Shown piece after piece: positions 49,338 to 64,000 of a DNA stretch of 64,000 nucleotides. The DNA is taken from contig NZ_RFSK01000005.1 in the NCBI RefSeq assembly GCF_009923995.1, positions 62,001-126,000 of the forward strand. The letters run 5' to 3'. Source of the stretch: Janthinobacterium sp. Its GTDB lineage: Bacteria > Pseudomonadota > Gammaproteobacteria > Burkholderiales > Burkholderiaceae_D. The position numbers and the translations under genes are program-made. A model generated the notes under the pieces. That model made no database searches. It worked only from the letters and a program-made list of their open reading frames with translations, and was not told the origin of the DNA. Position 1 is the first letter of the stretch. Each line of letters opens with the position of its first letter.

Positions 49338-51350
49338 CTAGCGCATGGCCTCCGCCAGTCCCGGGGCAAACTCGGCGCCATGCTTGACTTGCGCGGTGGA
49401 CGCCTTCAAGGTGGTGCCGATCGGTTCGGCGCGGCCATCGAGGCATTTGCCGAGGAAGTTTTCCGTCACCGCATTGAAGGCGATGTTGTTGACGGGCCGG
49501 GCGAAACCATGGCCTTCGTCGGGGAACAGCACGTAGGTGACGGGAATATTCTTGGCCGCCATGGCTGCCACGATCTGGTCCGACTCGGCCACGTTGACGC
49601 GCGGGTCATTCGCTCCCTGGCCGATCAGCAGCGGGCGCTGGATGTTCTGCGCGAAGTTCAGCGGCGAGCGCTCCTTCAGCAGCGCCTTGCCCTCTTCCGT
49701 GGTCGGATCGCCCATGCGCTTGTAGAACTGCTGCTTGCCCGCTTCCCAGTAGGGCGGGATGGTTTGCAGCAAGGTGAACAGGTTGGACGGGCCGACGATA
49801 TCGACGCCGCAGGCGAAGGTGGTGGGCGTGAACGCCATGCCGGCCAGGGTGGCGTAGCCGCCGTACGAGCCGCCCATGATGGCCACCTTGTCGGCCGTCG
49901 TCACGCCGCTCTTCACGGCCCATTGCACCGCGTCGAGCAGGTCGTCATGCATCTTGCGGCCCCACTGCAGGTCGCCGGCCGAGATGAACTGCTTGCCGAA
50001 ACCCGTCGACCCCCGGTAGTTCACCGACAGCACGGCGTAGCCCCGGTTGGCCAGCCACTGGTGATAACCGTTGTAGCCGTAGGTGTCGCGCGCCCAGGGG
50101 CCGCCGTGCACCAGCAGCACCATCGGCACGGCGCGGGTGGCCTTGCCGCTGGCGTTCGCCTTCGATGCCTGCGGCAGGGTCAGGTAGGACACCAGCGTCA
50201 GGCCATCGCGCGCCTTGATTTCCTGCGGATACATGGGCACCAGCGGCGCGCCGACCAGTTCCGGCCGCGTGACGTACAGCTGCGTGAGCTTCTTGCTCTT
50301 GCGGTCATACAGCCAGCTTGACGCAGGCGCCGTGACGGCGTCGACGCCGACGAGCCACTTGTCGTCCGCTTCCGTGCGCGACGTCACGTTGAACTGGCCC
50401 TTGGTATGCTTTTTCAGGAAGGCCAGGTCGGCCTTCAGCTCGTCCGTCAGCGGCAGGTATTCCTGCTGCAGGTAGTCGACGGAATAGGCTTGCACGCGGC
50501 CCGTGCGCGTGTCGTACAGCGCATCGGCAATGTCGGCGCGCGGGTCTTGCGCCACCACCGTGGTCTTGCCGCTGGCGACGTCCTGCGCCAGCAGCGCCGA
50601 GGTATTCCGGCCGCGCGAATCGGTCCAGTACAGGGTCTTGCCGTCGACCGTAAAGGCCAGCGGCGCCGTCGTCTGCGAATCTTCCAGCCCCACTTCCGCC
50701 AGCGGCGCGCTCTCGACCTTGCCGTCCGTGATGCGGAAATACTGCATGCCGCCGTCGGCCCGCGCCTTGCTGGCGATGCGCAGATTGAGCAGTTCATCGG
50801 CCAGGTAGCCGCCATAGCCGTCGTTCTGCTCCACCAGGGTCAGCTTGCCGCTGGCCAGGTCCAGGCTGTAGACGTCATGCCAGCGCGCGTCACGGTTATT
50901 GATGCCGATCAAGATACGGTCCTTGACCTTGCTGCTGATCTGGATCACGCGCACGCGGGTCTTCTCGAAGGGCGTGTAATTGATCTGCTTGCCGGTGGCC
51001 ACATTCACGCCGTACAGCAGGAAATTTTCATCCCCGCCCTTGTCCTGGATGTACAGCAAGGTCGTCGAATCGGGCGACCAGAAGCTGCTGCGGATGGGCC
51101 GTACCTTTTCATCCGTCAGCGGACGCGCCTGCGCCAGGTCGCTGGACGGCGCCACCCACACATTGAGCACGCCGTCGCGCGGCGCGATCCACGACAGCCA
51201 CTTGCCGTCAGGACTGATGCGCCCGCCGGACTTGCTGGGATTGCCAAAGATCTTCGCCCGCTCGATCAGCGGCGTATCGTTGACTGGGGCTTGGGCGTGG
51301 GCCGGCAGTACGCTGGCAAACAACAGGGCAGGCAGGGCATAGCGAATCAT
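49338..51350 (-). CDS. S9-family prolyl-oligopeptidase-like exported peptidase
   Basis: A 670-residue serine peptidase with an N-terminal signal peptide (MIRYALPALLFASVLPAHA). A beta-propeller of about 400 residues is followed by the alpha/beta-hydrolase domain. The catalytic triad is Ser495 in GGSYGGYAT, Asp582 in NDPRVNV and His614 in DEGHGF. Likely periplasmic, trimming peptides. The start at 51350 is used because the longer frame has no ribosome site and would bury the signal peptide. Confidence 0.93.
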   Translation of the reverse strand: MIRYALPALLFASVLPAHAQAPVNDTPLIERAKIFGNPSKSGGRISPDGKWLSWIAPRDGVLNVWVAPSSDLAQARPLTDEKVRPIRSSFWSPDSTTLLYIQDKGGDENFLLYGVNVATGKQINYTPFEKTRVRVIQISSKVKDRILIGINNRDARWHDVYSLDLASGKLTLVEQNDGYGGYLADELLNLRIASKARADGGMQYFRITDGKVESAPLAEVGLEDSQTTAPLAFTVDGKTLYWTDSRGRNTSALLAQDVASGKTTVVAQDPRADIADALYDTRTGRVQAYSVDYLQQEYLPLTDELKADLAFLKKHTKGQFNVTSRTEADDKWLVGVDAVTAPASSWLYDRKSKKLTQLYVTRPELVGAPLVPMYPQEIKARDGLTLVSYLTLPQASKANASGKATRAVPMVLLVHGGPWARDTYGYNGYHQWLANRGYAVLSVNYRGSTGFGKQFISAGDLQWGRKMHDDLLDAVQWAVKSGVTTADKVAIMGGSYGGYATLAGMAFTPTTFACGVDIVGPSNLFTLLQTIPPYWEAGKQQFYKRMGDPTTEEGKALLKERSPLNFAQNIQRPLLIGQGANDPRVNVAESDQIVAAMAAKNIPVTYVLFPDEGHGFARPVNNIAFNAVTENFLGKCLDGRAEPIGTTLKASTAQVKHGAEFAPGLAEAMR

Positions 51351-51552
51351 GGACACCTCATGGTTGTTGAATGAAGGGAAAACATAATAATTGTGCACGT
51401 GCCAGCACATGATAGGCGAAAGCCATGTTGCCAGGTTGATTACGGCGATGAAGGACGAAAATCGGGGGATGGACGGGAAGAAACGGGGAATGGAACGCGG
51501 TGCAGGTCAGGCGACAGCCGGCGCGCGGCAGGCGTGACCGGACGGAGAAAAG

Positions 51553-51578
51553 AAAAAGGCCACTCCGCAGAGTGGCCT
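51553..51578 (-). terminator. tRNA-Pro terminator
   Basis: A perfect stem AGGCCACT / AGTGGCCT with a six-base loop, followed in the minus direction by a T-rich run. It lies 17 bases after the tRNA-Pro 3' end and is the natural terminator of that tRNA, showing that the core chromosome extends up to here. Confidence 0.82.
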
Positions 51579-51594
51579 GAATCCTTGAATCTAA

Positions 51595-51645
51595 TGGTCG
51601 GGGCGAGAAGATTCGAACTTCCGACCCCATGCACCCCATGCAAGT
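51595..51645 (-). repeat. tRNA-Pro 3' fragment (probable attL)
   Basis: On the minus strand these 51 bases read ACTTGC, then anticodon loop ATGGGGT, GCATG, a complete T arm with TTCGAAT, the acceptor strand CGCCCCG and encoded ACCA. This is the 3' part of tRNA-Pro(GGG). The D arm and 5' acceptor strand are missing; beyond 51645 the sequence is unrelated. One anticodon-stem pair is mismatched. The fragment abuts an integrase, so it is best read as the attachment-site duplicate left by island insertion; the reconstituted tRNA should lie at the right end of the island. Confidence 0.82.
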
Positions 51646-51808
51646 ATTCAATCAACTCAACGAAATTCATCCACTTTTTTGTGTGCTATAATTCCCTTTA
51701 TATTCAATAAGTTAAAAGACATTTTTGTATCACGGATGTTCAGCCTGTTTCAACTGCTGCCATGAACTCTGTGTACATTAAAGTGTACACAATGATGAGG
51801 ATCATGGT
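51646..51808 (+). promoter_or_regulatory. Integrase promoter and operator region
   Basis: An extended -10 (TGCTATAAT, hexamer at 51687-51692) lies 116 bases before the integrase; its -35 is weak. At 51771-51790, 18 bases before the start codon, is the inverted repeat GTGTACA-TTAAAG-TGTACAC. This could be an operator controlling the integrase, possibly bound by an island-encoded excisionase or by the integrase itself. Confidence 0.55.
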
Positions 51809-53044
51809 ATGGCACTGAACGATAAGCTACTGCGAAACCTAAAGGCACGAGACGCCCGCTATGAAGTTGCAGACGCAGGAGGCTTGAGCGTCCGCGTAAC
51901 GGCGACTGGCACGATCACTTTTCAGTATCGATTCCGGATAGAGGGTAAACAGCACCGTATGGACTTCGGCAACTACCCCGACCTTTCGTTAGCTGACGCC
52001 CGAGAACTTCATCGCAACGCTCGCAACAAGCTCGCCCTAGGCACTAATCCGATCGAAGAAAAACGAGTTCTAGAAGTAACGGAGCGTAGATCGCTTACAG
52101 TAGCCGAACTGGTAGAAGACTTCATGAAGAAGGAAATCCGAGTGACCCGCAAGCGTCCACTGTATGCAGAAGAAATACTTAACAAGAACGTAGTTAGCGT
52201 GCTTGGCAAGAAGAAGGCAAAGGATGTGTCCAGACGCGACATTGTTGAAATGCTGGAGGCCGTTGTCGCCCGGGGGTCTCCGGTGATGGCAAATCGAACT
52301 GGCTCAATCACAAAACAGATGTTCAGTTTTGCTCAAACGCGTGGCTATCTTGAAAACAATCCTTGCTCTAACATCACAAGAACAAGCATCGGCGGTCAGG
52401 AAAAGCCCAAGGAATATTTCCTTACCTATCAGGAGATATGGAAATTTTGGCATGGAATCGAAAAAGCAAACTTTAGCGAGTCCCTCAAGATTGCATTGAA
52501 AATCTTACTGACAACGGGGCAACGTCGATGCGAAATTATCTATGGGGAATGGGCGCAAATCGACTTCCTAAAGGAACGCTGGATCATCCCCGTTTCGCTT
52601 TCAAAAAACGGAAAGGAACACGTTGTTCATCTTGCGCCCATGGCAATCGAACTCTTCAAGCTACTTAAGAGCTACTCCGGTGATAGCAAGTATCTAGTTC
52701 CCTCACCAGTCCTTGAAGAAGATGTGCCGATAAGTGAACGCGCAATCAATAGAGCAGTAGCACGCAATCGAGATGAACTCGGATTGAAAGACTTATCCCC
52801 TCACGTGCTTCGGCATACCTTTAGTACAAAACTGAGCGGATTAGGCGTAGCTCCTCACGTTATTGAGAAACTGCTAAACCATCAGCTTGGGGGAATGTTT
52901 GCCGTCTACAACCATCATCCTTACTATGCAGAACGCAAAGCCGCACTTCTACTCTGGTCAAGTAAATTGGAGGAAATTCTGGCTGCGAAAACAATAGATA
53001 GTGTAATTGAAGAACCGGACTTATTTGACGACTCCCCCTCCTAA
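51809..53044 (+). CDS. int: P4-type tyrosine integrase of the island
   Basis: A 411-residue integrase with the DUF4102 arm-binding N-terminus (LNDKLLRNLKARDARYEVADAGGLSVRV), a SAM-like core-binding domain at about 105-200, and a catalytic domain. The active-site residues visible are Arg239 in TTGQRRCE, His332 and Arg335 in HVLRH, a later His in LLNHQ, and the nucleophile Tyr367 in AVYNHHPY. It probably integrates at tRNA-Pro, whose fragment lies 160 bases away. Its base composition is clearly lower in GC than the chromosome to the left. Confidence 0.94.
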   Translation: MALNDKLLRNLKARDARYEVADAGGLSVRVTATGTITFQYRFRIEGKQHRMDFGNYPDLSLADARELHRNARNKLALGTNPIEEKRVLEVTERRSLTVAELVEDFMKKEIRVTRKRPLYAEEILNKNVVSVLGKKKAKDVSRRDIVEMLEAVVARGSPVMANRTGSITKQMFSFAQTRGYLENNPCSNITRTSIGGQEKPKEYFLTYQEIWKFWHGIEKANFSESLKIALKILLTTGQRRCEIIYGEWAQIDFLKERWIIPVSLSKNGKEHVVHLAPMAIELFKLLKSYSGDSKYLVPSPVLEEDVPISERAINRAVARNRDELGLKDLSPHVLRHTFSTKLSGLGVAPHVIEKLLNHQLGGMFAVYNHHPYYAERKAALLLWSSKLEEILAAKTIDSVIEEPDLFDDSPS

Positions 53045-53053
53045 AGTAACGTC

Positions 53054-53096
53054 TCCTGCCCTTATCAAGGCAACACTTACCATGACAAGGGCAGGA
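53054..53096. repeat. 10-bp inverted repeat after the integrase
   Basis: TCCTGCCCTT and AAGGGCAGGA are perfect inverted arms separated by 23 bases, about 10 bases after the integrase stop. No T run follows, so it may be a factor-dependent terminator, a binding site or a recombination site. The 187-base gap to the next gene otherwise shows only A+T-rich sequence likely to carry a promoter. Confidence 0.5.
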
Positions 53097-53231
53097 AGAG
53101 CCCTCATTCCTCAATGCAGCTACTTAGATAGTTTACGATGACTTGCAAGATAAGTTACAATTAATCAACACGCACGTTCGGAGTACAGGGCGCCACACCC
53201 GGCTAAAAAATGAAAAAGAGGCAAATATAAA

Positions 53232-54377
53232 GTGAGCCAAAACGCATCAGGTCAATTGTTGGGTTATGCCATGCAGTTCCCTCGAGCGCTTTGCCACTTG
53301 CTCAAAGCGGGTCCTGGCTGCACAGTCTGCATTGAAGTGCACGGGGATGTCGCGACCTTGCTACCGACAGGCGAAATTATTGCTGAAGAGGACAAGTCCT
53401 CCATCAACAGCAATCCTGTCACGGACAAATCAGTCAATCTTTGGAAAACACTTTCCAATTGGGTGGACAGCGTTAGGGCCGGTGAGTTCGATGTCAAATT
53501 AACCACCTTTGTACTGTATCGGAACAAGTCAGGTCAACTGGGCCTAGCAGAGGTCTTTGACGCATGTGCAACTCGAGATCAAGCGAATCAGGCGCTGCTG
53601 GACGCGGATCCCGAATTTGCGAACCTGGATGAGTCTCACGCTATCTGGCCATATTACAAAAACGTGGTGCTCGACTATCCAGACATCCTGCTTGATGTGA
53701 TCGTCAAATTCCAACTTGAAACCGGAGATCTCGCCGGGTATGCGGATGTCGAGCAAGGACTGCGCACGAAACTGGTCGCACTGAACCAGCTCGATGCGGT
53801 CGTTCATCACCTAAATGGCTGGTTAGTCAAATTAGTGATGACGCGCATCAGCCAAAACCAGGCAGCCATAATCACATTTGACGAGTTCGCGCACGAGTGC
53901 GCCGTGCTCTTTTCCCGGGCCCGTTGCTTCGACTTACTGGACTTCACCACATACTCTCCACTATCTTCGGACGAGATCGACAAACACATCAAGAGTCGCC
54001 CTACCTATCTACGCCAGATTGAATTTCTGAAGGCTGATAATGACGACCTCATCGAAGCTGTAACGGACTTCCTCAAAGCAAAAACCAATCGCGACAAGTG
54101 GATCGAAGACGAGCTAATCGACGAAGAGTTGGCAAGTCAGTTCGAGGAAAATCTACGAAGGTTTTGGAAAAACAAGCAGAAGGAGGTGAAGCTTGTCAAC
54201 GGCACACTCGACAAAGAGGCACGAGGCATGGTCTTGTTTGTTCAGTGCCAGAGTCACCAGGAGACAATTCGCAACGTGAAGCCTCCGCCGTCCACCATTG
54301 CAGGAACCTACCACGCTCTAGCCGACAAGCCAAACCTCGGCTGGCATGAAGATTGGGAAGCGGAATTCAAGCGATGA
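53232..54377 (+). CDS. ABC-3C system component with nuclease-like N-terminus
   Basis: A 381-residue protein starting at a GTG with AGAGG ten bases before it. The N-terminal segment (about 8-100) fits a restriction-endonuclease-like fold of the Cap4/DUF4297 kind: E35 and D39 in CIEVHGDV, then E53 and K55 in AEEDKSS at the usual spacing for D...(E/Q)xK. The rest is helical, with the C-terminal region (KQKEVKLVNGTLDKEARGMVLFVQCQSHQE) fitting the C-terminal domain predicted for ABC three-component systems. Its stop overlaps the start of the middle component. Predicted effector of the system. Confidence 0.78.
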   Translation: MSQNASGQLLGYAMQFPRALCHLLKAGPGCTVCIEVHGDVATLLPTGEIIAEEDKSSINSNPVTDKSVNLWKTLSNWVDSVRAGEFDVKLTTFVLYRNKSGQLGLAEVFDACATRDQANQALLDADPEFANLDESHAIWPYYKNVVLDYPDILLDVIVKFQLETGDLAGYADVEQGLRTKLVALNQLDAVVHHLNGWLVKLVMTRISQNQAAIITFDEFAHECAVLFSRARCFDLLDFTTYSPLSSDEIDKHIKSRPTYLRQIEFLKADNDDLIEAVTDFLKAKTNRDKWIEDELIDEELASQFEENLRRFWKNKQKEVKLVNGTLDKEARGMVLFVQCQSHQETIRNVKPPPSTIAGTYHALADKPNLGWHEDWEAEFKR

Positions 54378-54913
54378 GTGAGCCAACCCCCGAAAAGCCA
54401 GAGGCAGATGATCACTCCTTGCTCGCCGAAGAAGTGCGCACGTGGAATACTCCGCTAATTGGCGCTTACCAGCTTTGGCAATTCACGCTAGGCTATTGCC
54501 AATCCCGAGCAGATGGCGATGCCCCAGTCGGATTACTCCACTTTATAGCCGGGCCAATTCTCGCAAGTCCCCAGCTCAGCGAGACCGTTAGCTTGCGTCG
54601 CAAGAGCTTGCAGTCATACGCCCTTGGTTTCGAGGACAAGAAGCAGATGGATCTACTACTCGGCCTGCAGGACCGGATACGTCGTCGTCGCCCTCAGACG
54701 ATGGCGGCTATCGATGCCGCCATCTGCGCGGGATTGTTGATCTGGGATGCCGAAAGCGGCAAGCTATATCCGCGTCCAGCTCCAACCGCAAGTCGCGGCC
54801 GCAATTTGCGTAGCACACTCAAGCGTGAAGGCGACAAGGCACGTATATTGGGCGCCTGGTTTGCCGCACATGACCTTCCAACCATCGCCGCATATCTGAA
54901 AGTGGTGTTGTAA
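54374..54913 (+). CDS. ABC-3C middle component
   Basis: A 179-residue helical protein with WNTPLIGAYQLWQFTLGY near residue 25, which resembles the middle-component (MC) family of ABC three-component systems. It starts at the ATG at 54374 inside the previous stop and ends in TAATG, sharing one base with the ATPase start. It is expected to link the ATPase to the nuclease-like component. Assignment relies on motif and gene order. Confidence 0.78.
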   Translation: MSEPTPEKPEADDHSLLAEEVRTWNTPLIGAYQLWQFTLGYCQSRADGDAPVGLLHFIAGPILASPQLSETVSLRRKSLQSYALGFEDKKQMDLLLGLQDRIRRRRPQTMAAIDAAICAGLLIWDAESGKLYPRPAPTASRGRNLRSTLKREGDKARILGAWFAAHDLPTIAAYLKVVL

Positions 54914-56901
54914 TGCAGCTTCAACTAGTCAAGCTCATCATCTGGCCGAAGATCCAGACTCATGGCCTACATTCTATAAAATTCAAGAAGGGTGCTGTCA
55001 ACGTCATCACTGGTGGATCCCGCACAGGCAAGTCGGCAATCATCCCGATCATCGACTATTGCTTGGCCTCTAGCGAGTGCCAAATTCCCATCGACACCAT
55101 CCGTGATCACTCCGCTTGGTACGGACTTCTTCTGGAAACCGAGAACGAGCAAATTCTGGTCGCTCGAAATGGGCCGAGCGGTCGCGAACCATCGGACGAG
55201 TTTTATCTGATGCGAGGCCAAGCTCTCAGTATCCCACCAACCATCGTCGCGCCAAACGAAAAGCTCGATAGTGTGAAGCATATCCTGAATTCGCTGGCAG
55301 GCACTCCCTACTTTCGATTAAGTGGCGCCGACGACCCTCGCCCCTATCAGGAGCGGCTCGGCTTCCGGGACCTGATGGCCTTAGTCTTCCAAAGCCAGGA
55401 AGTAGTGGCAAATCAAAACATCCTTTTTTACAAGACCCATGCCCACGAGCACCGGGAACGACTGAAAAATTGGCTACCCTACATTCTCGGTGCAGAAACA
55501 CTCGAAGTCTTGATGGCGAGGCAACGACTAAGCGTGGTGCAGGCTAAGCTCAACCAGCTTCGCCGAGAATTCCAGAAGACCAGGAGCGTCTCTGACAACT
55601 GGATCGCTAACATGATGGGCCACTTTCAGGTCGCTAAAAGCTATGGACTGGTTGATGAAACCTATGATTTGCCTGAAGCACCTCTTCCCGACGACCTGAT
55701 CCGTATGGCTAAGGACATCCTTGCTGCCAAGCCGGACCACCCGACCCCGACTGCGCAGCGGGTCGATCAGGACGTACAGGAAATGCTTCGACTTGAGAGG
55801 GAAGATGACAAGCTCAGCGATGAGATCAGCCTCGTTCGCAAACGCCTCAACGACATAAATCAACTCAAAGCAGGGCTGACCGGATATGGCGGCACGGCGA
55901 GACGCCGTGCCGATCGACTGCAAATCTCCCAATGGTTCGATGACATAGCACGGGAAGCGCAGGATTGCCCGTTGTGTGGAGAGGCGAAGCACGACAAAAG
56001 TCGCGATGAAATCAAAAAGATCGCGGCCGCATTCCAAGTGGTCGAAGCAGAAGCCAATCGCACGAAGGAGATTCCCACTTCATTCGAACGTGAGCAAGTA
56101 TCCTTGACGCGCCAGCTCGAAACGGCGCTTGACCGCCGCAAGGCCCTCAATAGCCGCATGGACAGGACACTCGCGCAAAACCGCGCCACTAGGGAACTGT
56201 TCGATAGACGTCAGAGCATGTTTTTCTTCCTCGGGCACCTCAAGGCTTCTGCAGACATGTTTCAGAACCTTGTCCCCGGCGGAGATATGGCCCAGGCGAT
56301 CGCTGCCATGGAAAATGAGGAACAAGAACTACTGAAGCAGATGGATCCGCAAGGCGTCCAACGCCGACTTGACGCAGCGCTGAAGATCATCGCACAAAAA
56401 GCCTTGGTGCGTCTTGATACCCTCGATGTAGAGGAGAAATACAAGCGCACATCTCCGCAGTTCTCGGTGAAAGACCTGAGCCTTAAGGTAATGAGTAACG
56501 ATGGCCATTGGCATTTTCTTGCCGAAGTGGGCAGCGCATCGAATTGGCTATCCTTCCATATCGCTTTCGTTTGTGCGCTGCACGAGTATTTCAACGAACT
56601 ACCAGAATCCTGTGTGCCCAGCTTTGCCGTCTTTGATCAGCCCAGCCAGGTATATTTCCCAAAAACGAACCGCAACACGCAAAGCGATGACCAGTCGCAG
56701 TATGACGATGAGGATGTACAAGCAGTCATCGGCATCTTCAAAACGTTGGCTAATTCAGTGCGAGCACAACGGGGAAAGTGGCAGTGCATTGTGCTGGACC
56801 ATGCGAGAGATGAAATCTATGGTGGAGTCGATGAAGTCTACGAAGTGGATGTCTGGCGGGATGGCAAAAAACTTATTCCGCCACACTGGTACGAATCTTA
56901 G
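54913..56901 (+). CDS. ABC-3C ATPase (DUF3732, Rad50-like)
   Basis: A 662-residue SMC/Rad50-like ABC ATPase. Walker A GGSRTGKS is at residues 34-41. A long coiled coil over about 195-450 is broken near the apex by CPLC (Cys352, Cys355), a possible zinc-hook half. The C-terminal head has VPSFAVFDQPSQVYFPKTN, a Walker-B-like segment typical of DUF3732. Members power conflict systems in which the ATPase senses DNA ends or invading replication. Translation is coupled to the MC by TAATG. Confidence 0.85.
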   Translation: MQLQLVKLIIWPKIQTHGLHSIKFKKGAVNVITGGSRTGKSAIIPIIDYCLASSECQIPIDTIRDHSAWYGLLLETENEQILVARNGPSGREPSDEFYLMRGQALSIPPTIVAPNEKLDSVKHILNSLAGTPYFRLSGADDPRPYQERLGFRDLMALVFQSQEVVANQNILFYKTHAHEHRERLKNWLPYILGAETLEVLMARQRLSVVQAKLNQLRREFQKTRSVSDNWIANMMGHFQVAKSYGLVDETYDLPEAPLPDDLIRMAKDILAAKPDHPTPTAQRVDQDVQEMLRLEREDDKLSDEISLVRKRLNDINQLKAGLTGYGGTARRRADRLQISQWFDDIAREAQDCPLCGEAKHDKSRDEIKKIAAAFQVVEAEANRTKEIPTSFEREQVSLTRQLETALDRRKALNSRMDRTLAQNRATRELFDRRQSMFFFLGHLKASADMFQNLVPGGDMAQAIAAMENEEQELLKQMDPQGVQRRLDAALKIIAQKALVRLDTLDVEEKYKRTSPQFSVKDLSLKVMSNDGHWHFLAEVGSASNWLSFHIAFVCALHEYFNELPESCVPSFAVFDQPSQVYFPKTNRNTQSDDQSQYDDEDVQAVIGIFKTLANSVRAQRGKWQCIVLDHARDEIYGGVDEVYEVDVWRDGKKLIPPHWYES

Positions 56902-56992
56902 CTGTATTGATCGAGACTTGACCTGACGTAAACGGCTTTGTTACACAAATGCCCGAGGCGCGCCGGAATCGCGCTCCAGGTAGACTATCGGC

Positions 56993-58026
56993 ATGAGTGT
57001 ACCGAGCAAACCGATGTATCGAACGACCAACTGGAGGGAGTACAACGCGGCGTAGAAGACACATGTTTCGCTGCTCATTTGGTTGAACCAGGACATGTGC
57101 TGGCACGGCAGTTGCAGTGGCAAACGTGGGCGCAGCCGGAAGTACAGCGAGGCGGCGATTCAATTTTGCCTGACCATCAAGGTGTTGTTCAATCTGGCAC
57201 TACGGCAGGCGACGGGCATGGTGCAAAGATTGCTCAAGCTAGCGGGCCTCGACTGGGAAGTTCCCGACTTCAGCACCGTGAGCCGCCGACAAAAGCATCT
57301 CGCCGTGAAGATTACAGCGAACCCGACGATGACGGGATTACACTTACTAGTCGACGGTACCGACATCAAGATGTTGGGTGAGGGGGAGTGGAAAACGAGG
57401 AAACATGGTGCCGACTACCGCCGTCAATGTCGTAAGGTGCACCTTGGAATTGATGCCACGACCTTGGAAATCCGGACTATTGAAGTGACGGCCAACGCCA
57501 CCGACGATGCGCCGACGCTACCGTGCTTGCCCGACCAGATTGGCGCAAGCGAAGCTATCGCTGGCGTCAGCGGCGATGGCGCCTACGACACCAAGTCCTG
57601 CCATGAGGCCATTGCCCTACGTAGCGCACATGCCATTATTCCGACACGCAAAAACGGCAAACCCTGGAAAGACCGTCGGCGGGGGCTGAGGAGCGCAACG
57701 CGATACTACATGCCATGCGGCGCCTTGGTCGTCGGATATGGAAGAAGTGGACCGGCTACCATCGGCGCAGCCCGGTGGAAACCAAAATACGCTGCTTCAA
57801 GCTACTAGGGGACCACTGATTAATTCGACTTTTCGATGAAACCTCGTATATAAGTATTTGATTTTTAAGGCGACGAGTTTTGTAAATTGAATTAATCAGC
57901 GCTTCCCTAGGAGAACGAGTGATGGTACGCGATTTTGACCGTTAGGTCGCCGAGTTGCAAGTGCGCACCGCAATTCTCAACGGATTCACCCAACTCGGCA
58001 CACCGAAGACGGTGACCATGGCATAA
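56993..58026 (+). pseudogene. IS5-family transposase, multiply broken
   Basis: Reads as an IS5-group transposase beginning MYRTTNWREYN, with catalytic D in LLVDGTD and later VSGDGAYD. Four lesions are seen: a TAG at 57053-57055 where the family has a coding residue, a frameshift in the GC run near 57,675-57,686, the MITE inserted at 57,809, and a TAG at 57943-57945 (VRDFDR*VAELQV, where the family usually has a glutamine codon). The element cannot make transposase. Confidence 0.85.
57809..57906. mobile_element. 98-bp MITE-like insertion
   Basis: The 18-bp inverted ends GGGACCACTGATTAATTC and GGAAGCGCTGATTAATTC (reverse complement of the right end) match at 15 positions. The element is flanked by CTAG on both sides (57805-57808 and 57907-57910), a YTAR-type 4-bp duplication as generated by IS5-group transposases. 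Removing it and one CTAG restores the transposase sequence (KLL-GERVM). Too short to code; moved in trans. Confidence 0.8.
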
Positions 58027-58203
58027 CTTCGTTTGGGAAAAAGGGTATTACGCTCTCAATTTATTTGTGCAACAAAGCCGTTTCGCAGAAATAATCGTAT
58101 CAGCGAGCATATTACTTCTCGGCATTAAGATAGAATCGGGTGTTTCAACTGTAATGAAAAACGCTTTCAATTTCGTATCTTTTGCCCTGGGAATAACAAG
58201 AAC

Positions 58204-59409
58204 ATGTCTGAAAAGTGGACTGAGCGACAGAGACGCACGAATCAAATGGCCCGCATACTGGGGACTTACTTGCTTAGCCAGGACACTGTCACGCCTCGTC
58301 AGCTATACGGACTATCGAAATTATCGTGGATTACCAGCAGCTATGAAGACGATGATGCCGCCTACATTCAAAGCACGAAAATCCCCGCGCTCGGTGATAT
58401 TTTTGAAGAAAATTATTCTTCTTTGTCACTAAACGATGTCGCTGCCGAGGTTTCAAATCGACTCGATAGCGAGCTTGTCGGGCGCCTGATTCTGCAACAC
58501 ACCGGTTTTACCAATTTCTACAAGGCATATAGGAATAGCGTCAGCACCTGGATCGAAGCGAATCATTCGCGCTTGTTGCCGATGTACCGCGCCGCGTTGC
58601 AGGCCACCAATAGCGGCCACCGGCTGAGGATTATTCAAGCCATTCAGGACCTGCCAGGAATATCAAAGGCAAACCATGAAGAGCAAAGGATGCGACCGGA
58701 ATATTTCTTGACGCCAGCATTTTTCATACTGGATCCGGAAATAAAATTTCCGCTGATTAATGGGAACGCCTGGGTTAAGAACTTGCTCGATACGTTGAAG
58801 GTGAAAGATTCCGGGTTGGATGAACAGTACCTAGCAATGGTGGGACTGTACGGCGTCGGCGGCATCAACGATGCCGCCGATCTCGATCAGGTCGGACGTG
58901 ATTCGCCCGATTTCATAACGACCGAAACCCGCACCGCGACGAAACAACTGCTGCAATCGAAACAGACCGAAGACAATGTCACTTTGCCGCTGAAGGATGA
59001 AGCTGACGTCGAGTCGATCAGGAAAGCGGGGTCGGTTATGCAACGGCGTATCCACAACCGACTGACCAATCTGGTGCGCTCCAAATTGTCTGGCTACACC
59101 TTGCTGGAGGGACGCGCCCCCGAATGCATGTTCGATGTGCTAGTCAAGAAATACAACGATGAGATTGACTTGCTGATCGAGGTCAAAAGTTCAATCGAAG
59201 TCGCGCACGTCCGGATGGCGATCGGCCAGCTGTTCGACTATCGCATGCGGTTGAACGCAACACCAGGGCCACACCTTGCGATACTGTTGCCGGCACGTCC
59301 CGAGGAAGAAGTGATGGATCTGCTGATTTGGTTAGAGATTGGCTTGATGTGGTTTGAGGGAGACGCATTATGTACCGAGGACGTATGGTTGGCGCACCTG
59401 CAAGGCTAG
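58204..59409 (+). CDS. Uncharacterised PD-(D/E)XK nuclease-like protein
   Basis: A 401-residue protein. The N-terminal 290 residues are helical with no family I recognise. The C-terminal third has the PD-(D/E)XK pattern: Asp311 in CMFDVLV, Glu326 and Lys328 in LLIEVKSS, and Gln342 in AIGQLFDYR, matching a nuclease core with the D-x14-ExK spacing. The gene starts after the IS element and has no partner in the same direction. It lies just before a converging type III restriction pair, so it may be a stand-alone defence nuclease. Confidence 0.65.
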   Translation: MSEKWTERQRRTNQMARILGTYLLSQDTVTPRQLYGLSKLSWITSSYEDDDAAYIQSTKIPALGDIFEENYSSLSLNDVAAEVSNRLDSELVGRLILQHTGFTNFYKAYRNSVSTWIEANHSRLLPMYRAALQATNSGHRLRIIQAIQDLPGISKANHEEQRMRPEYFLTPAFFILDPEIKFPLINGNAWVKNLLDTLKVKDSGLDEQYLAMVGLYGVGGINDAADLDQVGRDSPDFITTETRTATKQLLQSKQTEDNVTLPLKDEADVESIRKAGSVMQRRIHNRLTNLVRSKLSGYTLLEGRAPECMFDVLVKKYNDEIDLLIEVKSSIEVAHVRMAIGQLFDYRMRLNATPGPHLAILLPARPEEEVMDLLIWLEIGLMWFEGDALCTEDVWLAHLQG

Positions 59410-59710
59410 CGCTGTGAATGAGATTGCCGCATGCATTGCACCCGGTCAAATTGCATGCAGATCAGGATTTATTGACCGCACCGGATAATAGCTGCGCGGT
59501 GGTGCGCAGCATGCTGGAATAGGCAGGCGGGGAGTTTCATGCTATCGACTTTGGACGCGAAATGCATTTGATATTGGACCTTCGCTAAAAAGTTAGGCCG
59601 ACAGTGCCGTTTTAACCTATATGCCACGGTTCAATTGTGCCATCGTCATTGCGCCAAGCTTTCAAAATCCACGCCCCTGAAAAGTACGGGACGTGGGGCT
59701 TGAAGTCGAC
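59410..59710. other. Gap between nuclease-like gene and res
   Basis: A 301-base space between converging genes. I see no ORF. An imperfect hairpin at 59669-59696 (CCACG-CCCC / GGGA-CGTGG) lies just past the res stop, with TTTTGAA beyond it on the minus strand; it is a weak terminator for the restriction operon. The rest shows no structure. Confidence 0.45.
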
Positions 59711-62422
59711 TTACATCAGCACCCGGTAGTGCCGATTGTCCGCGTCAGTTGACTTCATGAGACGGTATTCCATGCCGCTTGCCACAGCGATTTGGTGAGC
59801 GAAGTCCTTTTTGGCTTGGACCACCGCATCGTTGATTTGGTTGTCGGCTTTGACCTCAACGATAACGTATTTTTCGCTGCCATCCGGTTCCGCACGCAGA
59901 AAAACGAAATCGGGATAGTAGCTGCGCACGGTCTGCGAGTCCGGATCGATATACTGAATGAAGAAATCTGACTGACCATGTGTCAGCATTCCTGTGAAGT
60001 AGATTTTCTTGACGCGCTGTTCACGGAGTAGGTCCCAAAAAAGCAATCGTTCAGACCCCGAATCGAAGCAATACGTGTCGAGGTGGAAGCTTTTTCCGCG
60101 CTCGGCGTCATTAACATCAGCCATGCGGACGATCTTGTCTTTCGCCGCTGTTACCTCGTAGTAGCCACTAGGTGGCAGCTTGATGAGATCAACTTCGTGC
60201 TCCTCAGTTTGCTGCGCCTCGTCCAAATCGAACATCAGGCGGAAGAGTCGGGGAATGATCTCGTCGTAGAGCAACTCGTTAAACTCATTGGCCATCGCCA
60301 CCAGTTCCTCAGTGCCTTCCGTGGTCGAATCAAGTAAGTCTTCGATTTCCAAAGGGCGGCGGTTGAGGTAGCGAGAAACCTCCGCGATCATGGTCATGCG
60401 CGAAAACGCCTGCTTTTCACGGCGAGTGGTCAGATCGAAAGTGCGACTGGTCGGTGCTCGCGCGGCATCTGCAAGGTTGAGCCCGTCCTGTTGAGTTTCA
60501 ATTAGGCGGTACTTCTCAACCATATTGTTCCAGGCGACCTTATCCGACCGATCAAGACCGAGAGATTGCCCGGGAAGTACTAATTTCTCACGCATCTCGT
60601 ACTGCTTGCGCACCCGCACAAGTTTGATTTTGACAGGAGGCGCAACGACGCGCACCTCGATGCGCTCCTTGTCGCTGGCGATCTTCTGCAGGTCATCAAC
60701 ACTGATGTGGAAGTTCTGCTGAAGCTCCTCGTTGAGGATATCGAGATTGGCATTTGAAAGGAATACATGACCGGTGTGCTGGGCTTGGCCAATGGACCGT
60801 AGGCAGCGCATCGTAGCTTGAAGAACAAAAACGCGCGACTTCGGTTCGCGGAACATGCCCACACCAAAGAGCGAGCGACAGTTCCACCCTTCGCGCCCTT
60901 TGTTGACCAACAGAATAAATTGCTTCTCCGACGCTTCAGTGTCGAGGCGATTGAACTCGCGGATGTCATCATTGGTGGTGAGCTTTTCGTCGCCGACGTT
61001 CACTAGGATGCGAGAAGTAGGAATGCCATACTTCATCAGCGCCCGCTCGACTGCGGGCTTCAACTCACCAGTCAACTCATCGATGGTGGCTGCGAAGAAA
61101 GCTAGCTTTGGCAACAAGCCCTCGGGACGCAGGCCCCCAGCCTCTATGAGAAAGCGCTCGATGGCGATGTCCACGAACTCGTCCGTACGAGAATTTCCGT
61201 AGCCGTGCAATAAGACTTTCTTAAGAAACGCCTTATCGATAGCCTCTTTCAAGCCATAGGCGTAAACCACCTCCGGCAACACTTCACGCCCGACGTACGG
61301 CGTACCGGTATAGTTGTAGCACGCCACTACGCGCGTTCCTGCAGCGTTGAGGCTTGCTGCAAGAATGTCGATGGTTGTCCGGAGGCTGGTGTCGCTCGCC
61401 TTCGCGCCAACGCCCATGTCTTTGGCAAGCGCCTTCCCAAACGCGTGATGAGCCTCATCCACGTAGATACCTAGCTGTTCAAGGCGACGCAGTTTCTCGA
61501 AGCGTTGGTTGGTGGTCAGTTCGCCTTCCTCTTCTGGTTGATCGAAGTTATAAAGATCAGCTGCGTCTGCATAAACACCGGTAGCCCCGAGAGTTTCGCC
61601 GGTCGCGCCGAAAAGTTTGTCAACGGAAGACCTCTCCTTGCGCTGGCGCTTGAGAATGATCTTCTGTGTATTAGAGACGATGATATTGAAGCGCGAGCGA
61701 TCCAGAGCATCCAGCGACGTGCCTGCTTCTTCAAGATAGTGAAAGCGCAAATGCGTGGTCAGAAAGTTGACATACTCCGGCGGCACCACACGAGTGAGAT
61801 CGAACGATTCGATCTCCTTCAGTGAATGCAGGACCGTTTTGTCAGGCGCGAACACGAGCGCGTTGTGGCAATAGCGCGCGTCTTTCTCGAATTTGTTACC
61901 CAGTAGAAATTCGTAGAAGATACAGGTTGCCATTAGGATGGTTTTGCCAGTGCCCATCGTCAATGCGAAGATATAGTTTGGGTAGACACGGGAATTCTTG
62001 CGCATCTTCTCGAACAACACTTTGTATGAGTTCAATTCAAGCTCATCACTTTCGCCGAACTCGAACATCTCCTGCCTGGCGTTACCGAGGAAGGATCCGA
62101 ATTTGCGGCCCTCGAACTTGCCGCTGCGCTCGTACCATGCCTTGAAGATTTCCTCGACCTTTGCATTTCCGAGGAACTCCTTAAGGAAGACGTAGGTCTC
62201 CAGTGCCTCAAACTGCGGCTGGCGCAGGAAAGCTTTGGGATTACTCTCAGGATTATTGAAGTCGAGAAACTTTCGGGTGAGCTCTTTGTAATTCTGCCGA
62301 ATCTTCCCTCGGTTGTCTTGATAGAACCGCCATAGAAAACGAAAGAAGGCGAAGTCGAGCGACGCGCCCGACGTGCTCGCCCCCTTGGCGCCGGCCTTTG
62401 TCATTGCACGCTTAGTCGCCAT
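59711..62422 (-). CDS. res: Type III restriction endonuclease subunit (Res)
   Basis: A 903-residue SF2 translocase-nuclease. Walker A MGTGKT is near residues 156-161, and a DEAH-type box (IYVDEAHHAFGK) follows. Helicase motifs such as GREGWNCRSLFGV are in the middle. A C-terminal PD-(D/E)XK nuclease has Asp838 in YYPDFVF and Glu856/Lys858 in VIVEVKAD. The ATG at 62422 overlaps the mod stop by 11 bases, the usual mod-res coupling; the TTG at 62428 is an alternative. Cuts only when Mod-Res meets head-to-head unmethylated sites. Confidence 0.94.
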   Translation of the reverse strand: MATKRAMTKAGAKGASTSGASLDFAFFRFLWRFYQDNRGKIRQNYKELTRKFLDFNNPESNPKAFLRQPQFEALETYVFLKEFLGNAKVEEIFKAWYERSGKFEGRKFGSFLGNARQEMFEFGESDELELNSYKVLFEKMRKNSRVYPNYIFALTMGTGKTILMATCIFYEFLLGNKFEKDARYCHNALVFAPDKTVLHSLKEIESFDLTRVVPPEYVNFLTTHLRFHYLEEAGTSLDALDRSRFNIIVSNTQKIILKRQRKERSSVDKLFGATGETLGATGVYADAADLYNFDQPEEEGELTTNQRFEKLRRLEQLGIYVDEAHHAFGKALAKDMGVGAKASDTSLRTTIDILAASLNAAGTRVVACYNYTGTPYVGREVLPEVVYAYGLKEAIDKAFLKKVLLHGYGNSRTDEFVDIAIERFLIEAGGLRPEGLLPKLAFFAATIDELTGELKPAVERALMKYGIPTSRILVNVGDEKLTTNDDIREFNRLDTEASEKQFILLVNKGREGWNCRSLFGVGMFREPKSRVFVLQATMRCLRSIGQAQHTGHVFLSNANLDILNEELQQNFHISVDDLQKIASDKERIEVRVVAPPVKIKLVRVRKQYEMREKLVLPGQSLGLDRSDKVAWNNMVEKYRLIETQQDGLNLADAARAPTSRTFDLTTRREKQAFSRMTMIAEVSRYLNRRPLEIEDLLDSTTEGTEELVAMANEFNELLYDEIIPRLFRLMFDLDEAQQTEEHEVDLIKLPPSGYYEVTAAKDKIVRMADVNDAERGKSFHLDTYCFDSGSERLLFWDLLREQRVKKIYFTGMLTHGQSDFFIQYIDPDSQTVRSYYPDFVFLRAEPDGSEKYVIVEVKADNQINDAVVQAKKDFAHQIAVASGMEYRLMKSTDADNRHYRVLM

Positions 62423-64000
62423 TGCCAACGCTCCCTTCCCACGATTCCGAAAGCAGGTCAGTGATCTTCACGCGGATGGTACCCGCGTTGTCCGGCACGT
62501 TGTAAATGCCCCTTACCAGGTCGCCCTTGCTCGGAATATCTAGCACTGTCGGTTGCAACACTGCTCCATCGTAGTTCCAGTCGATCAGCACGCTTTCCGT
62601 AAGCTCCCTCCAGTCGTCCACTACCTCTTTCTGGAGAGAGAGCTTCTGTAACAGATTCATCGGGTAGAAATTGACGATGACCAGCTCACCCTCCTTTATA
62701 GCAACCTTTGCCTCAGAGTCACGCCTGAACTCCAGATCGGCCTTATCTCGCAGGATATCGACCACCTTTACATCGATCTTGAAGGGCTTCGCAACCAGAA
62801 TCAGTTGCGCTGCCAAATCTGGCTCGTGGCCCATACAGACAAGGGTGATCTTCTCGACTGCGCGATTCGGGTTTTCGTTATGACGGCGCTGCCACGTTTT
62901 CTGGTCAAAGTTGTGGATCAGCTCGTTCAAGTCTGCGCGCGTGGCAATGCGGTTGACTGGCATTATCTTAACCATACGCCCGTCCTTCTCACCATCGAAC
63001 ACGGTGTTGAATTCCAGCTTCTGCACCTCCAACGCCTCGATCAGCAGCTCCTTCGCTTGGACTGGGTTCCGGAAAATGTCATAGTGATTGACGTTGTGCA
63101 ACTCGAACCCAGTGAAGGACTTCGTCTCGCCACTGAGTGATTTCTGTCGCAATTCCTCGGCAATGCCGAGGAGACGCTTGGTGGTCGTCTGGATCGCGCC
63201 AAGGTTGATGTCGGCACCAATGAAGCGACGACCCAGTTGCATCGCGACAGCTTGCGTAGTTCCTGATCCCATGAAGCAATCGAGAACAAGTTCACCCGGC
63301 CGGGAACAAGCCAAGATGATTCGTTCCAAAAGGGTTTCTGTCTTCTCTGTAGGATAGTCAACGTACTGAGGGTCTTTCATGGTCCATACATCTTGTACGC
63401 GATTCCCTTCATCTTCGTCTGCATACCGAATTAATCGTGGATTACCGGAGGACGACCATTCAATCTTTCCCTGAGTATCAAAGTGATCAAGTTGCGAATG
63501 AACGTATGCCCAGTGTCGCCCACGTGGTGGTGGCAAGCCGCGCCATGGCTGACCGGTCTGCCCTGCTCGCTCTCCAGGTGCGTGCAAAGCCACCGTCGTA
63601 AATCTGCGACCTGTGCCATCCACCTTTTCAAAGATGCGAACTAAGTCTTCTGAATCTTTTTCTTCACGGAGCGGTGTCCAGGCGTAGTTGTCCCCACCCT
63701 TTCGATAGAAAAGTACAGTGTCATGAATATTGCCGAACGCAGTCAAATCCGAGTTTTTCGGGTTTGACTTAATTCGTGCGATCTCATTGCAGAAGTTTAC
63801 CTGACCGAAAATTTCGTCAAGCAGACAACGGATATGATGATTTTTATGCCAGTCGCAGTGAAGAAAAATAGCACCAGTTGGGCTAAGTAGCTCTCTCAGT
63901 AGGAGAAGTCTTTCATATAGGAACTGGAGATACTCGTCGTTCGTCCAGATATCCCCATACTGTTTTTCCTCAAATGCAGCTTGATCTCCTCTTGCCTTGT
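62412..64000 (-). CDS. mod: Type III DNA methyltransferase subunit (Mod), 5'-truncated by the window
   Basis: A beta-class N6-adenine methyltransferase and recognition subunit. The frame stays open to position 64000, adding AFEEKQYGDIW, SPTGAIFLHCDWHKNHHI and FGQVNFCNEI upstream of the TTG at 63746, so that codon is not the start. The SAM-binding motif DCFMGSGTTQAVA is visible. The catalytic DPPY box and target-recognition start lie beyond the right edge, which marks the gene as partial. It is upstream of res and overlaps it by 11 bases. Confidence 0.93.
   Translation of the reverse strand, partial: KARGDQAAFEEKQYGDIWTNDEYLQFLYERLLLLRELLSPTGAIFLHCDWHKNHHIRCLLDEIFGQVNFCNEIARIKSNPKNSDLTAFGNIHDTVLFYRKGGDNYAWTPLREEKDSEDLVRIFEKVDGTGRRFTTVALHAPGERAGQTGQPWRGLPPPRGRHWAYVHSQLDHFDTQGKIEWSSSGNPRLIRYADEDEGNRVQDVWTMKDPQYVDYPTEKTETLLERIILACSRPGELVLDCFMGSGTTQAVAMQLGRRFIGADINLGAIQTTTKRLLGIAEELRQKSLSGETKSFTGFELHNVNHYDIFRNPVQAKELLIEALEVQKLEFNTVFDGEKDGRMVKIMPVNRIATRADLNELIHNFDQKTWQRRHNENPNRAVEKITLVCMGHEPDLAAQLILVAKPFKIDVKVVDILRDKADLEFRRDSEAKVAIKEGELVIVNFYPMNLLQKLSLQKEVVDDWRELTESVLIDWNYDGAVLQPTVLDIPSKGDLVRGIYNVPDNAGTIRVKITDLLSESWEGSVGNGD

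Follow-up and report, generated by a model that had tools for sequence, protein, structure and literature searches.

Lamassu, ABC three-component (ABC-3C) and DdmABC systems form one superfamily according to the accessible portions of PMC10586767, PMC12409362 and PMC12799240, which also describe the DdmABC system of Vibrio cholerae as having a Cap4 effector and as acting on both plasmids and phages, and which credit recent work with the finding that the effector, LmuA, is liberated and then forms a homo-tetramer. In the accessible portions of PMC10586767 and PMC12409362, ABC-3C is an earlier computational name covering Lamassu operons; Lamassu type II is today's name for an ABC-3C operon with a Cap4-type nuclease. 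Several complexes of this kind are available in the Protein Data Bank (PDB): those from Salmonella enterica are titled 'LmuACB in nuclease sequestration state' (9hqu), 'LmuACB bound to DNA duplex' (9hqx) and 'LmuA nuclease tetramer bound to DNA duplex' (9hr5), and 9uxl is titled as a type II Lamassu LmuACB complex from Vibrio cholerae O1. Entries 9nxx, 9ny5, 9nyg, 9uxh, 9uxi and 9uxk contain the same LmuA sequence as 9uxl; the depositors also solved LmuA forms with the motif lysine changed to alanine, and 9ny1 is such a K-to-A form.

Here we consider a 64,000-nucleotide (nt) stretch of the genome of Janthinobacterium sp. (contig NZ_RFSK01000005.1, positions 62,001 to 126,000; hereafter the window), which holds an intact lmuA-lmuC-lmuB operon on the + strand at 53232-56901. 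Given that the genes are intact and keep their catalytic and nucleotide-binding residues, and given the fold prediction and the family matches, we consider it very probable that the operon encodes a Lamassu type II (ABC-3C, DdmABC-like) abortive-infection system, in which LmuA would act as a nuclease. The original prediction, made from this DNA alone, had placed it among systems with little or no direct experimental work; that view does not hold, given the DdmABC studies and the complex structures from S. enterica and V. cholerae, and the operon is an ordinary further example of the already characterised Lamassu type II.

Gene layout and family membership

The first gene, lmuA (53232..54377; all three genes are on the + strand), begins with GTG and encodes an effector of 381 amino acids (aa) with an N-terminal nuclease of predicted restriction-endonuclease fold and a C-terminal CTD7 domain; its nuclease motif region, residues E35 to K55, lies at 53334..53396 (+). 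It is followed by lmuC (54374..54913), encoding a 179-aa middle component of the MC3 family, and lmuB (54913..56901), encoding a 662-aa SMC/Rad50-like ATPase with DUF3732, a Walker A motif GGSRTGKS, a CPLC hook, GSASNW and a Walker B motif FDQ. The GTG start is supported by residues A5, Q8 and G11 of LmuA, which are invariant across 17 aligned rows. The genes lie exactly where they had first been noted, with a 4-nt lmuA/lmuC overlap (ATGA) and a 1-nt lmuC/lmuB overlap (TAATG); of their description as translationally fused the overlaps stand and the fusion does not, as the genes are probably translationally coupled instead.

LmuA matches the PADLOC LmuA model (E-value 1.5e-46, residues 2-377) and Pfam CTD7 (3.3e-17, residues 260-376), LmuC matches Pfam MC3 (6.7e-15) and has no PADLOC match, and LmuB matches both Pfam DUF3732 (1.1e-48) and PADLOC LmuB (3.1e-107, residues 1-660). 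PHROGs gave no match for LmuA or LmuC and two weak ones for LmuB. As CTD7 and MC3 are both named for ABC-3C, these matches, together with DUF3732, bear out the initial reading of an ABC three-component system, including the membership of its small protein in an MC family. A phmmer search of PDB sequences recovered all three proteins nearly full length (LmuA 2e-43, LmuC 1.5e-11, LmuB 1.7e-129), the best chain for each belonging to entry 9hqu, in which the numbers of chains are consistent with a complex of two LmuB, one LmuC and one LmuA. The features that characterise Lamassu type II are present: a three-gene effector-LmuC-LmuB operon, a nuclease domain with its catalytic residues, a C-terminal domain, a middle component, and an LmuB with Walker A, zinc hook and a Walker B Glu-to-Gln change. 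Because the Pfam and PADLOC E-values run from 6.7e-15 to 3.1e-107, and because the gene order and overlap are kept and the genes are under purifying selection (see below), chance is excluded for the three open reading frames (ORFs).

A Cap4-type nuclease could in principle belong to another kind of system, and the nuclease domain type is indeed common to Cap4 of the cyclic oligonucleotide-based antiphage signalling system (CBASS), as stated in the accessible portion of PMC10586767. The C-terminus of LmuA is CTD7, however, and its partners are MC3 and DUF3732, and we give almost no credence to the operon being a CBASS Cap4 effector or some other Cap4-bearing system in place of Lamassu. The CBASS candidate was also rejected on scans for SAVED and CD-NTase domains: neither was found among the operon proteins and four window neighbours with Pfam, NCBIfam and PADLOC, nor among six further island proteins with Pfam and PADLOC.

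Relatives, selection and spread

Eighteen loci encode LmuB relatives, and 17 of them also encode LmuA and LmuC; one further locus, L004, was dropped before these counts because its LmuB match was weak and neither LmuA nor LmuC was found there. Gene layout was compared for 16 relatives, the 18 loci minus L010, whose BLAST figures equal those of L011, and L022, which has a partial LmuB only. The order lmuA-lmuC-lmuB is the same in 16/16, and the 1-nt LmuC/LmuB stop-start overlap recurs in 15/16; LmuA/LmuC spacings range from -62 to +12 and are approximate, because starts were moved to the nearest start codon. Compared with the nearest relatives, L005 and L006, third codon positions are far less identical (38.5-44.2%) than second positions (83.4-88.8%), from which the operon is, as judged from these alignments, under strong purifying selection. 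Nonsynonymous divergence (dN) is 0.18-0.25; of the six comparisons, five are saturated for synonymous divergence (dS) and the sixth gives a dS of 2.1, which argues against decay of the operon.

Presence is patchy: LmuB occurs in 3/61 near genomes (own included, one weak) and LmuA in 10/398 genomes of the phylum (own included, several distant). LmuA was also matched in 49 of 72,556 plasmid records, none of them reaching 60% identity (28.1% at best among the matches listed); Agrobacterium accounts for 16 of these records and Rhizobium for 14. Separately, L022, from Cupriavidus agavae, has an LmuB match of 75% identity over residues 106-350 only, with no LmuA or LmuC found within its 16.7-kb locus, and possibly represents a remnant or recombinant LmuB.

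LmuA fold and active site

An AlphaFold2 model of LmuA based on a 17-row alignment (mean predicted local distance difference test score 85.8; predicted template-modelling score, pTM, 0.60) places a helix at residues 15-25, strands at 31-34, 40-43 and 49-54, a helix at 68-82 and a strand at 91-97, with E35, D39, E53 and K55 at or beside strand ends. Helix, three strands, helix, strand is the core order of the restriction-endonuclease fold, and the N-terminus of LmuA is, as modelled, restriction-endonuclease-like in topology. When the model was compared with the PDB using Foldseek, ranks 1-19 of 497 matches were all Lamassu chains, led by 9hr5_C (E 1.6e-26, template-modelling score, TM, 0.57); a HerA-DUF assembly, Avs3 and Hachiman came after rank 19. 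The restriction-endonuclease-like N-terminus proposed from the letters of the DNA thus gains support from both topology and structural neighbours, and residues D39, E53 and K55 of LmuA, like the CPLC hook and DUF3732 of LmuB, are all as first described.

Of the 18 aligned LmuA rows, all have K55 and all but L003 have E35, D39 and E53; the edge of the L003 locus truncates its LmuA immediately before K55. The combination E35/D39/E53/K55 (EEDK) is therefore present in 17/17 readable rows, from four phyla. In a wider LmuA set, L042 also has EEDK; other members have EQDK (L043, L048), EQSK (L044, L045), LQTK (L046), ASLK (L047), ISLK (L049) or FQLK (L050). A 25-row LmuA tree puts 18 EEDK rows (the window, 16 loci of the LmuB-relative set and L042) on one side of a branch with moderate support (90/75); the tree carried long-branch warnings and an unsettled bootstrap, and it includes neither L003 nor L045, the latter a repeat of L044 in score and motif. 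Named sources of the EEDK rows are Pseudomonadota, Bacteroidota, Planctomycetota and Elusimicrobiota. These rows may, though we think it unlikely, form a deep Lamassu type II sub-clade whose ExK site could differ from QxK in metal use, cleavage pattern or activation threshold. We found no solved structure for this sub-clade.

Several observations weigh against reading the operon as a working Lamassu type II system. A Pfam search of LmuA with E-values allowed up to 1 did not recover DUF4297; of the Cap4/DUF4297 identity first proposed, the DUF4297 part has failed, and the putative Cap4 link is carried by the PADLOC LmuA match, the solved LmuA structures and reviews. LmuA is only distantly related to solved LmuA (19-27% identical in Foldseek rows 1-19), and with whole-chain matches at TM 0.34-0.57 and a root-mean-square deviation (rmsd) of 8-16 Å, besides the pTM of 0.60, the model does not reproduce the domain placement; tight fits, with an rmsd of 1.3 Å, are confined to two part chains, 9hr5_D (137 columns) and 9hqu_C (124 columns). 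The third motif of solved LmuA is QSK (S. enterica) or QDK (V. cholerae), as against EDK here. Across 52900-57200, neither promoter-like sites (2 versus 2.9 in shuffles) nor terminator-like sites (3 versus 4.9) are above chance. For the characterised relative itself, according to the accessible portion of PMC12409362, data conflict on how much of the protection against phage VIB04 is due to DdmABC. Finally, no experiment on this operon or on EEDK members turned up in the literature, in searches that could not name the group.

The difference in the third motif is also what speaks for a Lamassu type II operon with a nuclease inactivated through E53; such an operon would be a remnant or would work through DNA binding only. 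Yet E53 stands together with E35, D39 and K55 in every readable row and in L042, the dN and dS values given above argue against decay, and PD-(D/E)XK nucleases classically have ExK as their third motif, the common form in the superfamily; we regard an inactive nuclease as highly unlikely. The original prediction had called activity uncertain on account of ExK, but the constancy of EEDK means that ExK is no sign of lost activity, and on the alignments it seems to be a feature of the lineage rather than the result of a loss. We thus retain a Lamassu type II system with a putatively active nuclease.

The ATPase LmuB

LmuB has Walker A GGSRTGKS, CPLC at residues 352-355 and FDQPSQ. In 17/17 aligned LmuB rows, T38-G39-K40-S41, G540, S541, N544, W545, D575-Q576-P-S-Q and H630-A631 are unchanged, and the CxxC hook is present in 16/17, L003 being without it; remaining motif positions vary in single rows (for example L003 and L013), and L020, whose LmuB is in two ORF pieces, was excluded from the alignment. 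The accessible portion of PMC10586767, a 2023 review, describes the Walker B Glu-to-Gln change as general for LmuB and deduces from it low or no ATP hydrolysis. On the reasoning of that review, the natural Q576 suggests that LmuB hydrolyses ATP slowly or not at all and would, for that reason, work as a one-way switch.

An ATPase of this kind might instead belong to a housekeeping Rad50/SbcCD-like DNA repair complex: LmuB weakly matches NCBIfam Rad50_Sulf (2.4e-07; 29.1 bits versus a cut-off of 1000), and it is called a putative Rad50 relative in the accessible portion of PMC10586767. The patchy presence of LmuB and LmuA described above, the matches of LmuA and LmuC to Lamassu structures, and the location of the operon on an integrase-bearing defence island all speak against a repair role, which we consider extremely unlikely.

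A genomic island at tRNA-Pro(GGG)

The Lamassu type II operon lies near one end of this island, which measures ~27.5 kb, occupies tRNA-Pro(GGG) and is bounded by 53-bp exact direct repeats. The left attachment (att) site, mostly a 3' fragment of tRNA-Pro(GGG), is at 51590..51642 on the - strand (C89:113590-113642 in contig coordinates), and the second copy, at C89:141115-141167 beyond the window, overlaps the intact tRNA-Pro(GGG). ARAGORN detects no tRNA in the window, the att copy there being limited to a 3' fragment; Rfam gave four matches on 50000-64000, every one below the gathering score. Just inside the left end is the tyrosine integrase of the island (51809..53044, +; Arm-DNA-bind_3, Phage_int_M and Phage_integrase), which is P4-type by domain make-up.

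A left-flank query matches, at least in part, 39/40 genomes of the genus (own included). Besides the own genome, G006, G029 and G023 match it over its whole length in one piece; in these three it is followed by an intact tRNA-Pro and then by the same TetR gene at 96-99% protein identity; on this sequence evidence these are empty sites (3/40 genomes of the genus). In many other genomes of the genus a distance of ~1 to ~51 kb separates the peptidase end from the tRNA end, which suggests that the site is an integration hot spot. BLASTP of seven island proteins, including the integrase, against ORFs of at least 60 aa in L003-L022 gave only two matches, both weak, so the island cargo is not common to the relatives. 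tRNA genes are near the operon in 2/14 relative loci scanned (L009 and L017).

Beside the operon, at 57083-57808 (+), is a DDE transposase fragment (DDE_Tnp_1_5, 3.4e-34; the DDE_Tnp_1 match stops at position 116 of 200), and at 58204-59409 (+) is the gene for a 401-aa protein, P0004, without a match in Pfam, NCBIfam, PADLOC or PHROGs, without a solved relative and without a relative in viral_contigs. The C-terminus of P0004 has a PD-(D/E)XK-like pattern, D311...E326xK328...Q342xxxY346, which is kept in its sole full relative (52%). Of 273 other genomes in the class, one has this relative, with an HmaA-like helicase ~2.7 kb away; among 398 others in the order, one short weak match came up. P0004 is possibly an unnamed defence nuclease; its predicted structure, from two rows, has a mean pLDDT of 50, too poor for searching.

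Farther along, a ResIII/TnsA-like protein (905 aa; window 59711-62428, -), an N6/N4 methylase (651 aa) and a UvrD-PDDEXK helicase (991 aa; both at L027:2413-7316, -) stand in a row and are, by their domain matches, a restriction-modification-like set. The island also has a TmtA-like sacsin/NOV_C protein (1119 aa; L027:7573-10932, +; 3.6e-64) and a 769-aa AAA_13 ATPase (L027:15666-17975, +) that matches PADLOC candidate PDC-S06 (5.2e-135). A G2P-like replication protein of filamentous phage type (L027:12880-13947, -; Pfam Phage_CRI 1.4e-20, phrog_702 1.7e-31) suggests that the island holds phage-derived or self-replicating parts.

Proposed mechanism and comparison with known systems

In Lamassu, LmuA is sequestered with two LmuB, and DNA ends serve as the trigger of its release. 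In the system encoded here, two SMC-like LmuB together with LmuC would keep the nuclease LmuA inactive and sequestered; upon infection, LmuA would be released and would form a tetramer in which the Cap4-type active site (E35, D39, E53, K55) is functional. The tetramer would then cut DNA, that of the host included, and phage growth or plasmid upkeep would thereby be halted. We infer sequestration, release, tetramer formation, DNA cleavage and the effect on the cell from solved homologues and reviews.

These results settle the label of the locus, an intact operon of a characterised kind on an integrase-bearing defence island. What they add is a small gain: a sub-clade, apparently new to experiment, in which the ExK site is constant, together with cleanly defined island ends and empty counterparts in the same genus. 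Should the operon prove active, it would take the range of known Lamassu nucleases further than the two QxK enzymes with solved structures.

Compared with known systems, the operon agrees with ABC-3C as a class, with CTD7, MC3 and DUF3732 all matched and no difference found. CBASS Cap4 has the same nuclease domain type (PMC10586767, accessible portion), whereas no SAVED domain or CD-NTase was detected with the operon here. V. cholerae DdmABC/type II Lamassu (9uxl) likewise has three components, a Cap4 nuclease effector and a DUF3732 LmuB with DQPSQ, but its LmuA has QDK, its LmuB is without CPxC at the aligned place, and its scores to the window proteins are lower. S. enterica LmuACB (9hqu, 9hqx, 9hr5) differs in the QSK of its LmuA, against EDK here, at 22-27% identity (Foldseek rows); all three of its proteins nevertheless match nearly full length, and its LmuB shares DQPSQ and a CPxC hook (CPMC).

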